64,000 nucleotides of DNA from Jatrophihabitans endophyticus (GTDB taxonomy: Bacteria > Actinomycetota > Actinomycetes > Mycobacteriales > Jatrophihabitantaceae): contig NZ_FQVU01000002.1 of assembly GCF_900129455.1 (NCBI RefSeq), forward strand, positions 930,001 through 994,000. The letters run 5' to 3'. Of the stretch, positions 59,654 to 64,000 are shown in pieces. Each line of letters opens with the position of its first letter. Positions within the stretch are counted from its first letter, which is position 1. The notes beneath the pieces were generated by a model. The model saw nothing but the letters and a program-made list of their open reading frames with translations. It did no database searches and was not told the origin of the DNA. A program made the translations under genes and the position numbers.

Positions 59654-59683
59654 TTGACCGGATCGGCGCGGGGCTGTTACGGT
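59654..59683 (+). promoter_or_regulatory. Promoter of the cobalamin-regulated operon
   Basis: TTGACC (59654-59659), 18 bases, TACGGT (59678-59683). Good match to the housekeeping actinobacterial -35/-10. The transcript would start near 59690, just before the riboswitch. The stretch 59527-59653 before it shows nothing else. Confidence 0.6.
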
Positions 59684-59685
59684 GC

Positions 59686-59812
59686 GCTCGGCCGGGCAGC
59701 CGCCCGTGCAGCAAGACCAGCCCACGCAGGGGAAGCCGGTGTGAACCCGGCGCTGACCCGCAACCGTGAGCCGCGCAGCGATGCGAGGCGAGCCGGAATG
59801 CCTGCCGGGCTG
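59686..59812 (+). ncRNA. Cobalamin (B12) riboswitch
   Basis: The conserved core is readable: GGGAAGCCGGTGTGAA (59730-59745), GCTGACCCGCAACCGT (59752-59767) and the 3' B12 box GCCGGAATGCCTGCC (59792-59806). These are the signature blocks of the adenosylcobalamin-class riboswitch in the right order and spacing. It lies about 100 bases upstream of ATG 59913, so high B12 should switch off the secreted helical-repeat protein and its coupled neighbour. Confidence 0.92.
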
Positions 59813-59853
59813 GGTGGTCAGTGTCTCGTCGCGGTAGCGAGACGGTGCCCGGC

Positions 59854-59903
59854 CCGTTCGTCGGTCGTCGCCGTGTCGCGTTGCGAGCACTCCGAACGAA
59901 CGG
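59854..59903 (+). promoter_or_regulatory. Hairpin next to the start codon, probable expression platform
   Basis: CCGTTCGT (59854-59861) pairs with ACGAACGG (59896-59903), whose last bases belong to the only ribosome-site-like stretch (ACGGACG) before ATG 59913. A smaller stem GTCTCG/CGAGAC (59823-59828, 59838-59843) precedes it. The layout suggests translational control downstream of the riboswitch. Confidence 0.45.
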
Positions 59904-59912
59904 ACGTCGCTC

Positions 59913-62900
59913 ATGACTCCCTGCCCCACCCGCCGGAGCCGCGCCGTCGCGGCCGGGGTCATCCTCCTGCTCGCCGGTGCTCTGATCACCGCGGCGCCCG
60001 CCGGTGCCAAGCCCGCCAAGACCACCAAGCCCGCCGAGCCGAGGAAGACCACGACATCCGTGAGCGCGTCACGCGCCGTCGCGGGCGCGCCGCTCGCGCT
60101 GACCGCGAGGGTCAGGCCGCGTCCGACGGGCGGCACGATGCGCTTCACCATCGCCGGCAGGACGCCGAAGACGTGCGCGAAGGTCGCGGTGCGCGCCGGG
60201 TCGGCGCGGTGCGCCGCCACCGCCCCGGCCGCGGGCCGGCGCACCGTCACCGTCCGGTACTCCGGGGTGCGAGCGAGCGCGAAGTCGAAGCATCGGGCCT
60301 ACCGTGCGTCGAGTATTCGGCGCACCGTCACGGTGGCGGCGAGACCCGGCACGACCCCGAAACCGGCGGCCGGCACCATCGTCGGCAGCACCGGCTCGTG
60401 CACCACCAGCAAGGGCGCGCTGGTGGCGGTCAGCTTCGCGACGTGGTCCGGGCCGATCGTCCGTGGCTGCGACACGACCCCGACCACCGGCATCGACCTG
60501 CTCGACACGGCCGGCTTCACCACCGCCGGCACGCAACACGACGGCCCGCAGTTCCTGTGCCGTATCGGCCATGCGCTGTTCGACAGCGGCACGCAGTACC
60601 CGAAGCCGGCCACCGAGTCGTGTGTGAGGACGCCGCCGGCGAGCGCGTACTGGTCCTACTGGCTGGCGCCGAAGGGATCGAACACCTGGTCTTATGCGCA
60701 GTTCGGCGCATATTCGCAGCGGACGATCGACGGCGACGTCCAGGCGTGGACCTACGGCGCCACCGACGTCGAGGGCACCACCGGCAAGCCCGCCTTCACG
60801 CCGAACCAGGTGCGGGCGGGATCGAGCGCGACGGCGAGATCCGCGCCGGCTGCGCAGCGAAGGGCTGCGCCCGCGCCGCGCGCCGACGTCGGGAAGGCGA
60901 CCGACTACCTGCTCACCGCCCCCAACAGTGCCGGCGACGGACCGCAGCTCAAGGACGGCCACTACTACGACCAGTACGACCTCGGTTTCGCCGACTACGG
61001 GTTGACCGTCGACGCGGTGTACGCGCTCGCCGCGTCCGGCTCGGACGACGCCGCGTTGCGTCGCATCATGGCGTTCCTGGACAGCGCCGGAACCGACGGC
61101 AGCGACCGGTCGATCAACGACTACACCGGCGTCGGCACGGAGTACGCCGGCGGCGGCTCGGTCGGCAAGGTCGCGCTGGCCGCACTGATGACCGGCTACG
61201 ACCCGCACGCGTTCGCCGGCCACGATCTCGTCGCGACCCTGGCCGAGCTGGTCTGCACGAAGGCGATCGATAGCGTCTGCGCCGCGCCCGGCAACTACCG
61301 TTACTCGCCGTCGACCTTCGCGCAGGCGCTGCCGATCATCGCGCAGCTACGCGCCGGCGACGCCAAGGGTGCGAAGCGTCCGATCGCCTACCTGGAGAGC
61401 CTGCAGCACGCGTCGGGGGCGTTCCCCAGCGTGCTGCCCGGCGCCGACTCCGAGACCGACAGCACCGGCATCGCCGCGATGGCGCTCGCCCTCGTGCCGG
61501 GCGCCGAGGCGCGCACCCGGCTGGCGAAGGCGCTGTCGTGGCTCGCTTCGCAGCAGACCGCCGACGGCGGCTTCCCCGGCGCGGCCGGCGACTCGACCAA
61601 CTCCGCCGCCATCGCGATCCAGGCGCTGCGGCTCGACGCGCAGACCTACGCGACCCGGATCGAGCGAGCCGAGGCGTTCCTCGCCGCGGCGCAGAACGCC
61701 GACGGCGGCTTCGACGTCGACGCCGACGCCGACGGCTCGGACATGCGAGCCACGACGCAGGTGCTCGGCGGTGTCGTCGGCACCCCGTTCGGCTCCGTGC
61801 TCGACGACCTCGACGCCAAGGACGTCGGTACGTCCGGGGCCACCTACCTCGTCGACCAGCTGACCGGCGGCGACCACTACGAGACGGTCTACGACGGGAC
61901 GGCCTACCCCGACCAGGGGCTCACCGCCGACGGCGTGTTCGCGCTGCTGGCCACCGGCGGGCACGCCGCGTCGGTCTCGGCCATGACGTCCTACCTCGAG
62001 AAGCAGGTCGACGCGTACGCCGACCCGACCGGGGCGAACTTCGGGCCCTACAGCGGGTCACTGGCCAAGCTCGCGCTGGTCGCCGAGGCCACCGGCGGCG
62101 ATCCGCACTCCTTCGGCGGGGCCGATCTGCTCGCAGTGCTCGCCGCGAACGTGTGCACCGAGGCCCAGGGTGCGGGGCAGCCGTGCGTCGCGGTCGGCGA
62201 CTTCCGCAACAACTACGCCACGGTCTCGCAGGCGCTCGGAGTCCTCGCCCTGCAGGCATCGCCGGACGACGGTGACCATCTCGCCGCCACCGACCCCGCC
62301 GTCGTGCGGCTGCACCAGCTGCAGTGCGACGACGGCGGCTTCGCCAGCACGCTGCGCAGTGCCGGGGACGGCTGCACCTCCGACGTCGACACCACCGGGT
62401 ACGCGGTGCAGGCGCTCGCCGCCGTGGCGGGTACCGACACGTGGATCGGCGCGGCGCAGCACTACCTGCAGGACCGGCAGCGCACGACCGGTCTGTTCCC
62501 GGGGGCAGCGGGGGACAACGCCAACTCCACCGCGCTGGCCGCCGACGCCCTGCAGTCGCTCGTCACGGCCCTGACCAGCCCCACCGCGGACCCGCCGCAG
62601 CCGCAGACGATCACGCCGATCGCGCCGTGGCAGTCGTCGCTGCGCGGCCTGCGTTCGCTCGCGACCCCGGCCGGCGGCTTCGCCCTCACCGGCGGCGCGG
62701 CGCCGGACCTGCGCGCCTCCACGCAGGCGGTCGCCGCGGCGGCCCAGCGCAGCCTGCTGGAGCTGTCCGGCGCGACGATCCTGTCGCTGCCGCGTGCCGC
62801 GGCTGCCGACCCGCCCGCCGTCCCCGGCGGCGGCTCGAGCTCCGGCGGAACGCCGTCCGGCCCCGGCACGACCTCCTCGGCGGCCGGCCACGGGAGCGGC

Positions 62901-63104
62901 AGCCCGGGCACCGAGACCTCCGGGGCCGTGCCGAACGGCGACTCGGCGTCGCCGGTCGCCGACGGTGCGGCGGGCACCGCCGACACCGGCGTCCCGACGC
63001 TGACCCTGCTGCTGTGGGCGGCCGCCCTGCTCACGCTCGGCGCGGCCCTGAGCGTCGCCGCCCGCCGCGGCGCGCGCCCCGGGCGTGGCGGGACGCACCG
63101 ATGA
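59913..63104 (+). CDS. Secreted helical-repeat protein, transcobalamin/intrinsic-factor-like, membrane-anchored
   Basis: A 1063-residue exported protein. Signal peptide to about residue 31. An Ig-like domain (about 45-142) follows, then a four-Cys module (about 160-300; C163, C186, C216, C237; TPPASAYWSYWLAPKG). The long helical part (about 327-1000) has six QxxxGxF-type repeats of the prenyltransferase/squalene-cyclase fold: LQHASGAFPS, QQTADGGFPG, AQNADGGFDV, LQCDDGGFAS, RQRTTGLFPG and ATPAGGFALT. There are no cyclase DxDD-type acids. A Gly/Ser linker and a C-terminal span with an Arg tail anchor it. Six such repeats build the alpha6-alpha6 barrel of transcobalamin and intrinsic factor, and the gene is under a B12 riboswitch, so surface cobalamin capture is the best reading (inference). 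The stop overlaps the next start by 4 bases. Confidence 0.85.
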   Translation: MTPCPTRRSRAVAAGVILLLAGALITAAPAGAKPAKTTKPAEPRKTTTSVSASRAVAGAPLALTARVRPRPTGGTMRFTIAGRTPKTCAKVAVRAGSARCAATAPAAGRRTVTVRYSGVRASAKSKHRAYRASSIRRTVTVAARPGTTPKPAAGTIVGSTGSCTTSKGALVAVSFATWSGPIVRGCDTTPTTGIDLLDTAGFTTAGTQHDGPQFLCRIGHALFDSGTQYPKPATESCVRTPPASAYWSYWLAPKGSNTWSYAQFGAYSQRTIDGDVQAWTYGATDVEGTTGKPAFTPNQVRAGSSATARSAPAAQRRAAPAPRADVGKATDYLLTAPNSAGDGPQLKDGHYYDQYDLGFADYGLTVDAVYALAASGSDDAALRRIMAFLDSAGTDGSDRSINDYTGVGTEYAGGGSVGKVALAALMTGYDPHAFAGHDLVATLAELVCTKAIDSVCAAPGNYRYSPSTFAQALPIIAQLRAGDAKGAKRPIAYLESLQHASGAFPSVLPGADSETDSTGIAAMALALVPGAEARTRLAKALSWLASQQTADGGFPGAAGDSTNSAAIAIQALRLDAQTYATRIERAEAFLAAAQNADGGFDVDADADGSDMRATTQVLGGVVGTPFGSVLDDLDAKDVGTSGATYLVDQLTGGDHYETVYDGTAYPDQGLTADGVFALLATGGHAASVSAMTSYLEKQVDAYADPTGANFGPYSGSLAKLALVAEATGGDPHSFGGADLLAVLAANVCTEAQGAGQPCVAVGDFRNNYATVSQALGVLALQASPDDGDHLAATDPAVVRLHQLQCDDGGFASTLRSAGDGCTSDVDTTGYAVQALAAVAGTDTWIGAAQHYLQDRQRTTGLFPGAAGDNANSTALAADALQSLVTALTSPTADPPQPQTITPIAPWQSSLRGLRSLATPAGGFALTGGAAPDLRASTQAVAAAAQRSLLELSGATILSLPRAAAADPPAVPGGGSSSGGTPSGPGTTSSAAGHGSGSPGTETSGAVPNGDSASPVADGAAGTADTGVPTLTLLLWAAALLTLGAALSVAARRGARPGRGGTHR

Positions 63105-64000
63105 CGGCGTGGCGGCGCTCCGCCGTCCTCGGCGCGATCGCCGTCGCGCTCGTCGTGGTGGTCGGTCCGGTGCTCGGGTCGCCCGCCGCCCAGGCGAGCC
63201 CGGTCGGCGACTGCGGGCCGAGCACGGGAACCGTCGTCGCCGTCGACTACTCGCACTGGGACGGCCCGATCGTGCGCGGCTGCGACCTCGACAGGCCCGC
63301 GTCCGGCATCGCCCTGCTGAACGACACCGGGTTCCGCACCACCGGCACGCAGCACGACGGCCCGCAGTTCCTGTGCCGCATCGGCAACCAGGCCTGGGAT
63401 CACGGCACCCAGTACCCGACGCCGAGGGACGAGGCGTGCGTCCGGACGCCGCCGGCCTCGGCGTACTGGTCCTACTGGCTCGCCCCGAAGGGCAGGAACA
63501 GCTGGTCGTACAGCCAGTTCGGCGCGTACGCCGACAAGCCCACCGAGGGCGAGGTGCAGCTGTGGATCTTCGGCGGCACCGACATCACCGGCGCCGACGG
63601 CGACCCGGTGAACGGCTTCCCGGTGTGCACCCCGAACTCGCTGCGTGCCGGCGGGTCCGCCTCGACGTGCACCCCCACGGGCACCGAGGCCGGCCGGGGC
63701 GTGGGCCACGGCGGGTCGAGACGGACGGCCGCGAGCCGGACCGCCGCGGTCGGCCGCGGTCACGGCGGGGCCGCGGACGGGCACCGGACGTCGTCAGCCG
63801 CCCGGCGGGCCGAGCCGACCGCGACGCAGGCGGGACGGTCGACGGCCCGGGCCTCGACCGCGCCGCTCGCGCCGACCGCCGGCCGCAGCGCCGCCACGCA
63901 CGGCACCGCGACGACGGCAGCGGGTCGGGCCGTCGCCTCGTCCGCGGCCGGCTCGTCGCTCGGCGCGCGGGCCGCGGGCAACGTCGTCGACGCGCGTCCT
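63101..64000 (+). CDS. Secreted protein with the same four-Cys module (3' end cut by window)
   Basis: At least 300 residues; the frame runs off the window. ATG 63101 overlaps the preceding stop (ATGA), so it shares the B12-controlled transcript. Signal peptide to about residue 33 (SPAAQAS). The module at about 38-185 is a paralogue of the one upstream: C38, C61, C92 and C113 have nearly the same spacing (23, 31, 21 against 23, 30, 21), and GTQHDGPQFLCRIG and TPPASAYWSYWLAPKG are shared exactly. A low-complexity Ala/Thr/Arg/Gly tail follows. No helical repeats so far. Probably a companion cobalamin-binding or anchoring subunit. Confidence 0.85.
   Translation, partial: MTAWRRSAVLGAIAVALVVVVGPVLGSPAAQASPVGDCGPSTGTVVAVDYSHWDGPIVRGCDLDRPASGIALLNDTGFRTTGTQHDGPQFLCRIGNQAWDHGTQYPTPRDEACVRTPPASAYWSYWLAPKGRNSWSYSQFGAYADKPTEGEVQLWIFGGTDITGADGDPVNGFPVCTPNSLRAGGSASTCTPTGTEAGRGVGHGGSRRTAASRTAAVGRGHGGAADGHRTSSAARRAEPTATQAGRSTARASTAPLAPTAGRSAATHGTATTAAGRAVASSAAGSSLGARAAGNVVDARP

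Follow-up and report, generated by a model that had tools for sequence, protein, structure and literature searches.

A cobalamin riboswitch precedes genes for two predicted surface proteins

The 64 kb stretch of DNA analysed here (the window) ends within an operon that is headed by a cobalamin riboswitch, encodes two apparently exported proteins, P1 and P2, and continues past the window into genes for an energy-coupling factor (ECF) importer, and we consider this operon as a candidate system for the capture and import of cobamides such as vitamin B12. An Rfam scan matched the full cobalamin riboswitch model RF00174 (model positions 1-189) with 36.0 bits (gathering score 31.5, E 1.7e-5), which bears out a preliminary description, made from the sequence alone, that had placed such a riboswitch ahead of a two-protein operon. 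No second Rfam match in the window reached its gathering score. Folding of the RNA from 59672 to 59932 gave a result no better than shuffled sequences (z 0.43) and pointed to no clear expression platform. The features of the locus are as follows:

59672-59823, + strand: cobalamin riboswitch aptamer (RF00174), covariance-model score above the cut-off
59824-59912, + strand: leader from the aptamer to the start codon, containing GTCTCG...CGAGAC, a short inverted repeat that lacks a T run
59913-63104, + strand: P1, 1063 residues, predicted to be exported and apparently membrane-anchored; relative of the NCBIfam SCO2321 family, below its cut-off
60060-60290, + strand: immunoglobulin-like domain of P1 (Big_3_5), residues 50-126; E 1.2e-7, 32.7 bits, under the curated 35.5
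60396-60761, + strand: beta domain of P1 (transcobalamin C-terminal/DUF4430-like), residues 162-283, from a profile
60876-61826, + strand: first alpha/alpha toroid of P1, residues 322-638, from a profile
61812-62795, + strand: second alpha/alpha toroid of P1, residues 634-961, from a profile; the copy modelled spans 61821-62801
63000-63062, + strand: C-terminal hydrophobic (transmembrane-like) segment of P1, residues 1030-1050, followed by a basic tail; by eye
63101-64000, + strand: P2, 343 residues, predicted exported beta-domain protein with a C-terminal hydrophobic anchor; extends to 64132, beyond the window
63209-63577, + strand: beta domain of P2 (DUF4430-like), from a profile

P1 begins with an export signal and an immunoglobulin-like domain, continues with a beta domain and the two alpha/alpha toroids, and closes with a low-complexity linker that leads to the C-terminal hydrophobic segment. 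In P2, a single beta domain and a low-complexity stretch lie between the export signal and the C-terminal anchor. The export signals and anchors were judged by eye from sequence, and on this basis both proteins are apparently secreted or surface-anchored; the hydrophobic segment and basic tail of P1 agree with the membrane anchor proposed for it earlier. The start of P2 overlaps the stop codon of P1. The coupling of the two exported proteins noted earlier comes down to a beta domain that both contain and that is approximately 63% identical between them. The preliminary description had also assigned to P1 a single helical-repeat domain with six QxxxGxF repeats. Strict motifs number five (at residues 498, 548, 594, 804 and 856) rather than six, yet the repetition itself is real and not due to chance, because 2000 shuffled versions of P1 held an average of 0.1 and a maximum of 3. 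The single domain was replaced by two tandem toroids when P1 was compared with the toroid profile.

The operon continues into genes for a predicted CbrT-like ECF importer

The contig was extended to determine whether ECF or ATP-binding cassette (ABC) importer genes lie just past the window, as had been predicted. After the end of P2, the operon encodes EcfT, a fused EcfA-EcfA' double ABC ATPase and a substrate-specific (S) component, so that where an operon unrelated to cofactor uptake was looked for as a sign against the prediction, CbrT-like ECF genes were seen instead. EcfT starts within a few bases of the end of P2 and belongs to the CbiQ family PF02361 (E 9.5e-10). Because the genes overlap or nearly touch, their spacing suggests that the operon is read as one transcript.

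The S component of the window operon matches PF12822, the family of ECF substrate-specific components, at E 3.2e-6, with a score of 27.7 bits that falls slightly short of the curated 30.7. A profile of 25 S components (alignment A9, drawn from 35 and including that of the window) was compared with solved chains and matched CbrT of ECF-CbrT (6fnp) at E 2.3e-10, while the next solved chain stood at E 0.052, followed by folate S components at 0.052 or worse. The structure 6FNP is described as that of the B12 transporter ECF-CbrT (PMC5997447).

A different substrate would be implied if the operon encoded a cobalt (or nickel) importer, in which a B12 riboswitch governs an ECF system like CbiMNQO and the surface proteins are unrelated to it. 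Cobalamin riboswitches are described as controlling cobalt importers too, such as cbiMNQO of C. difficile (PMC11477304), and the CbiQ family membership of EcfT fits this possibility. However, PF12822 matched 24 of the 25 S-component members, no CbiM family appeared among their matches at E up to 0.001, and CbrT was their best solved relative. The host also already has a cobalt transporter, CbtAB, with its own riboswitch. We consider a cobalt importer highly improbable and rejected it because the S component is not CbiM-like.

P1 contains toroids related to both transcobalamin and terpene cyclases

The second toroid of P1 was modelled with AlphaFold from four sequences, which gave a predicted local distance difference test (pLDDT) score of 78.4 and a predicted template modelling (pTM) score of 0.84, and the model was compared with transcobalamin and other solved structures, as the preliminary description had proposed. 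In Foldseek, transcobalamin 2v3n was matched at E 5.7e-6, and transcobalamins held ranks 12, 19, 22, 26, 40 and 46 among the best 50 matches, a list led by type II terpene cyclases. In VIA-align, the best match was drimenyl diphosphate synthase; intrinsic factor (2pmv) was matched with Z 21.8 and a root-mean-square deviation of 2.7 over 230 residues, at ranks 38 and 50 of the best 50, among which no transcobalamin chains were found. Solved alpha/alpha toroids match the model with Z above 20, and we conclude that an alpha/alpha toroid fold is well supported for this predicted domain.

A sequence relationship with the animal B12 carriers was found through profile comparison. A profile of 33 bacterial toroids, taken from 63 toroid domain matches as those of at least 255 residues, with permuted or split ones excluded, was aligned by hhalign with the alpha domains of intrinsic factor, haptocorrin and two transcobalamins. 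The alignment gave P 1e-6 and Prob 91 over 221 columns, and after trimming P 4e-7 over 194 columns; controls for each pair, consisting of one reversed and 30 column-permuted profiles, always gave P of 0.063 or above. It pairs the bacterial consensus VDTTALAVQAL with animal VDTGAMATLAL, bacterial GNANSTGLAAQAL with animal GDIYSTGLAMQAL and, near the C-terminus, bacterial ATAQAVLGLAG with animal SIAQILPSLKG, such that the animal proteins and the bacterial toroids have motif runs around VDT, N/DxxST and AQ in common. Taken together, the proposal of a transcobalamin/intrinsic factor fold is supported by this alignment and by the match to intrinsic factor, but neither fold nor sequence is specific to transcobalamin, since terpene cyclases score as well or better.

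PF01122, the family of the animal alpha domains, had no match in P1 at E up to 10 and was matched by 2 of 35 toroid relatives (best E 0.0058). A PF01122 search across 198 genomes gave no match in any of them, controls included, and carries no weight. A four-sequence mammalian alpha profile searched against 3498 open reading frames from 47 loci gave 12 matches with E<10, none below 0.01, and 9 of these were among the 49 toroid reading frames in the searched set. For the residues of intrinsic factor and transcobalamin that we take to contact B12, a list whose letters agree with the PDB chains, eight sites could be placed in the alignment, while S38 of intrinsic factor could not. Three of these are conserved, by identity or similarity (D153/D176, D204/N224 and Q252/Q273), and the other five are not. 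The cobalt-binding histidine of animal transcobalamin is not conserved in the bacterial toroids.

The closest solved folds and sequences raise the alternative that the toroid is an extracellular enzyme, resembling a terpene cyclase or prenyltransferase, which is regulated by B12 for other reasons, and P1 indeed matches PF00432 (E 1.9e-9). At the place of the DxDD motif, however, the third acid is absent from all 33 toroid relatives, and P1 itself contains no DxDD motif. The earlier statement that the cyclase acids are missing is thus correct for the third acid but too broad for the others, as 28 of the 33 have D or E at the first position and the second is D in 24 and N in 9. The cyclase DxDD triad is thus broken in all 33 relatives, whereas an intact cyclase active site had been named as evidence against a B12 binder. 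Furthermore, the toroid protein is predicted to be exported and has DUF4430-like domains and a CbrT-like ECF importer as its partners. An enzyme therefore appears very unlikely, and a terpene cyclase was rejected on the broken DxDD.

The beta domain is linked to transcobalamin mainly through DUF4430

Animal transcobalamin, intrinsic factor and haptocorrin combine an alpha/alpha toroid with a beta-grasp domain (PF01122 and DUF4430), and the sequence comparisons below suggest that the beta domain of P1 and P2 is this second transcobalamin half, which the preliminary description had not seen, present alongside the toroid. A Pfam search of the window beta domains found nothing convincing, and the DUF4430 model was not matched; among 31 beta relatives, DUF4430 was the most frequent Pfam match, yet in only 3 (best E 0.013). 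These 31, of 44 beta matches, form alignment A7, which excludes seven partial matches of the Streptomyces type described below (L060, L062, L066, L067, L068, L069 and L071) as well as L016, L057:4028, L080:9043, L084, L086:6512 and L089:8079. When this family was aligned by hhalign with 29 of 30 DUF4430 domains (alignment A8; L116 was left out because of a wrong frame), the result was P 2.8e-7 and Prob 93, and DUF4430 in turn aligned with the beta domains of intrinsic factor, haptocorrin and transcobalamin at P 2.5e-9 and Prob 96. Animal transcobalamins have been described as carrying DUF4430 at their C-terminus (PMC4350170). Searched against the PDB, the DUF4430 profile reached haptocorrin at E 0.012 and, ahead of it, a putative metal-binding protein (E 2.2e-4), and the bacterial beta profile gave only weak matches, the best at E 0.34, which we took as chance. 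We conclude that the beta domain is probably a transcobalamin-type beta-grasp domain, linked mainly through DUF4430.

DUF4430 was also found near the toroid itself. By eye, among the matches listed, 17 of the 34 genomes with a DUF4430 gene over the cut-off have that gene within 5 kb of a toroid match, and either kind of beta domain therefore seems to partner the toroid. The mammalian beta profile, built from four domains, matched two small operon proteins at approximately 1e-5 (L056:12894-13415, - strand, and L057:4001-4474, - strand), both of which lie between the riboswitch and the toroid gene.

Toroid, beta domain and ECF genes recur together in related genomes

At E up to 0.001, the toroid profile matched 95 of 296 genomes of the phylum, of which the weakest matches may be other toroid proteins. 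This phylum is inferred to be Actinomycetota from the SCO2321 and SCO2322 family members that score over their cut-offs and from the operon shared with Streptoalloteichus hindustanus (L050). A census was made of the 40 genomes with the best toroid scores, which is not a random draw; neighbourhoods were fetched for each, and a part was counted as present when it lay anywhere in the fetched stretch, partial beta matches included. The toroid, beta, EcfT, EcfAA' and EcfS genes were all present at 27 of the 40 loci (with beta only partial in 7 of the 27), any Ecf gene was found at 34, and a beta match at 31. An RF00174 match lies no more than 1.5 kb upstream of the toroid gene on the same strand at 30 loci, of which 15 score over the Rfam cut-off and 15 below. 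Such neighbours are not expected by chance, because 42 of 45 genomes searched contain only one to nine RF00174 matches each in 1.3 to 9.9 Mb.

The order of these genes varies. Most commonly, a toroid gene is followed by a separate beta gene, while the window has beta followed by toroids, and L063 and L070 have DUF4430, then ECF genes, then the toroid. The toroid and beta domain form a single chain, as in transcobalamin, in L056, L082 and L087. That the same parts persist through reshuffled orders is a strong argument that toroid, beta and ECF parts work together. It also bears on the possibility that P1 is a cell-surface adhesin or matrix protein that merely shares a promoter with a B12 importer. 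The immunoglobulin-like domain and the anchors would suit an adhesin, as would the CWB2 and SLH repeats of some relatives; however, many families retain toroid, beta and ECF genes as a set, in several orders and with toroid and beta even within one chain. We regard this explanation as very unlikely, and a plain adhesin was rejected because the association is kept at 27 of 40 loci.

A pattern scan of genome contigs, with patterns that were poor, confirmed only two loci. L050 has the same gene order as the window, with a riboswitch core that is visible by eye but below the gathering score. L051 (3422-4791, + strand), from an uncultured Kouleothrix (Chloroflexota), has a riboswitch of 56 bits before a toroid gene and is cut by the contig end; the predicted toroid protein has a C-terminal LPRTGG-like end. 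A scan of viral contigs found no relative.

Several relatives depart from the window in form. The toroid is apparently circularly permuted in L055, L060, L062, L066-L069 and L071 (genus g19) and in L081, L083 and L084 (family f17), with profile positions from approximately 140 onward coming first, followed by 3 to approximately 130, and with unchanged operon partners. In the Streptomyces-type loci of genus g19, the permuted toroid scores over the SCO2321 cut-off, and its partner matches the beta profile in the second half only (YWSFW...GDVQGFRF). This partner belongs to the SCO2322 family, a 144-position model for which the two proteins tested score over the cut-off, and may be permuted like the toroid. 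The capture parts are repeatedly duplicated beside one ECF module, as in the window: L089 contains a pair of toroid genes, of which one carries two beta domains, and L072 has toroid and beta twice, with a riboswitch match before each toroid. Anchoring varies by lineage: of 35 toroid relatives (alignment A6), 4 match CWB2 repeats, 3 match SLH repeats and 1 matches a Gram-positive anchor model.

A candidate surface clamp that feeds a dedicated importer

The riboswitch match, the operon order, the ECF genes, the toroid fold of the model, the sequence relationship of both domains to the halves of transcobalamin and the recurrence of the locus in genomes throughout the phylum are the observations on which we base our interpretation. 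We propose that this is a B12-repressible operon for a surface cobamide clamp that feeds a dedicated CbrT-like ECF importer, and we put the probability of this proposal at roughly 0.8. Cobamide binding, repression, clamp assembly and hand-off are the parts that we infer. At low intracellular cobalamin, the riboswitch would permit expression of the operon, and P1 and P2 would be held outside the membrane on their C-terminal anchors. There, the alpha/alpha toroid and the beta-grasp (DUF4430/SLBB-like) domain would act as the halves of a clamp that sandwiches a cobamide in the manner of transcobalamin and intrinsic factor; with two toroids and two beta domains between them, P1 and P2 could form two clamps. 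Once loaded, a clamp would dock on the CbrT-like S component and pass its cobamide over, and EcfT and the fused EcfA-EcfA' ATPase would then drive it into the cell. In the animal proteins, the alpha and the beta domain are each reported to be able to bind B12 in isolation, and their association depends on B12 (PMC11107200). By analogy, a toroid and a beta protein at the cell surface could likewise associate around B12.

A more particular form of this proposal concerns the importer type. ECF importers are generally considered to work without an external binder, and CbrT is not known to have an extracellular one. Capture proteins encoded with an ECF module would thus make a binder-assisted system, in which a split transcobalamin, with toroid and beta halves as separate anchored proteins, is doubled in the window; we see the case for this form as evenly poised.

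Several findings weigh against the clamp-and-importer proposal. Type II terpene cyclases top both fold lists (best Z 24.6), the first solved match of the toroid family profile is squalene-hopene cyclase (E 2.1e-40), and no transcobalamin is among its best 60 matches. The toroid alone is therefore not diagnostic, and transcobalamin is no closer to its fold than type II terpene cyclases are. The B12-contact residues are no better conserved as a set than random columns, since 12372 of 100000 random sets reach the same level, which does not support conservation of the set. Compared directly with mammalian beta domains, the bacterial beta domain gives a weak match (P 0.001, Prob 21.5), and an AlphaFold model of it from a three-sequence alignment was poor (pLDDT 32), such that the assigned fold rests on profile comparison. 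The window S component, searched by itself against solved structures, found no relative, which means that the link to CbrT holds at the family level. In the census, neither beta nor Ecf genes were found at 5 of the 40 loci, three of which are at contig ends, and 10 of the 40 have no nearby riboswitch match. Among these ten, L078 has a weak match just before the beta gene that starts its gene row; in L063, L064 and L070 a match lies farther upstream within the same contig; the toroid gene of L061, L065 and L085 is at the end of its contig; and L054, L071 and L091 have no riboswitch match near the toroid. Finally, the host has B12 synthesis genes, unlike most bacteria in which transcobalamin-like proteins were described in 2007. 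At approximately 387-404 kb of G000:C4 in the window genome (L092) are cobN, a tetrapyrrole methylase, a chelatase-like AAA/VWA protein and a sulfite-reductase-type protein, together with CbtAB and two cobalamin-class riboswitches (RF00174 and RF01482). If B12 synthesis in the host is complete, the system would serve salvage, precursors or other cobamides.

These host genes also favour an account in which the operon imports a corrinoid precursor or part, such as cobinamide, a lower-ligand base or another cobamide, to which the clamp and S component would be tuned. In two relatives, cobT (PF02277), a gene of late corrinoid assembly and salvage, adjoins the uptake operon (L016, 8501-9520, + strand; L017, 4468-6517, - strand), with cobS (PF02654) in L017 too, and ECF-CbrT is described as taking up cobinamide as well (PMC5997447). 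The S-component profile, however, points to CbrT, which takes both cobalamin and cobinamide. We view dedicated precursor import as unlikely, although it carries far more weight than the other alternatives considered here.

Relation to known systems and significance

A surface transcobalamin-like binder that feeds an importer was the central idea of the preliminary description, and its outline is supported by the ECF genes, the CbrT profile and the presence of both halves, but the idea itself was published in 2007 with regard to other bacterial groups. Burroughs, Balaji, Iyer and Aravind (2007) described a bacterial transcobalamin-like clade of the SLBB superfamily, secreted or anchored, in which a beta-grasp domain is combined with an alpha/alpha toroid, and predicted that it scavenges B12 or its precursors (PMC1796856). 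Its hosts are given as low-GC Gram-positives, planctomycetes and, less often, euryarchaea, and the bacteria among them usually lack key B12 synthesis enzymes (PMC1796856). Like that clade, the window and its relatives have the toroid N- or C-terminal to the beta domain, immunoglobulin-like domains, a second paralogous beta protein, and CbiO and CbiQ alongside, and because the same kind of system was predicted in that work, we regard the window system as a variant and not a new kind. Relative to the clade as that source presents it, the window operon belongs to another phylum (Actinomycetota, as inferred above), has beta domains beyond the reach of Pfam DUF4430, tandem toroids, a cobalamin riboswitch and a CbrT-like S component, and is found in a host with B12 synthesis genes; these are its additions to the 2007 description. 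With ECF-CbrT of Lactobacillus delbrueckii, it has the ECF architecture in common, but CbrT is described as using an ECF module common to other S components (PMC5997447), whereas the module in the window is encoded with its own S component and surface proteins.

Unlike the animal proteins, the window proteins have the order beta-alpha-alpha with a separate beta protein and are apparently anchored. Capture of B12 at the surface ahead of import also occurs in BtuG/BtuB of Bacteroides, an outer-membrane lipoprotein system whose folds are not known to be related. Among the matches listed in an open-licence literature library, there was no report on this branch and no experimental test of it.

The closest named families are those of SCO2321 and SCO2322. 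P1 matches the SCO2321 model NF053823 at E 5e-44 (150.8 bits, cut-off 300), as do all 35 toroid relatives at E up to 0.01, and 30 of 31 beta relatives match the SCO2322 model NF040672 at E up to 0.1. The Streptomyces-type operon proteins score over both cut-offs and P1 and P2 below them, and members over the cut-offs differ from the window proteins in that their toroid is permuted and the beta profile is matched only in part. These members sit in the same kind of operon, and a concrete, testable function would thereby be assigned to the SCO2321 and SCO2322 families, whose NCBIfam names imply none.

If our proposal is correct, it would describe a route of B12 import in organisms that also hold B12 synthesis genes, and it would extend the transcobalamin-like prediction of 2007 to another phylum with direct support from a riboswitch and a CbrT-like S component. 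It would also bear on how the B12 carriers of the animal gut and blood originated from bacteria.

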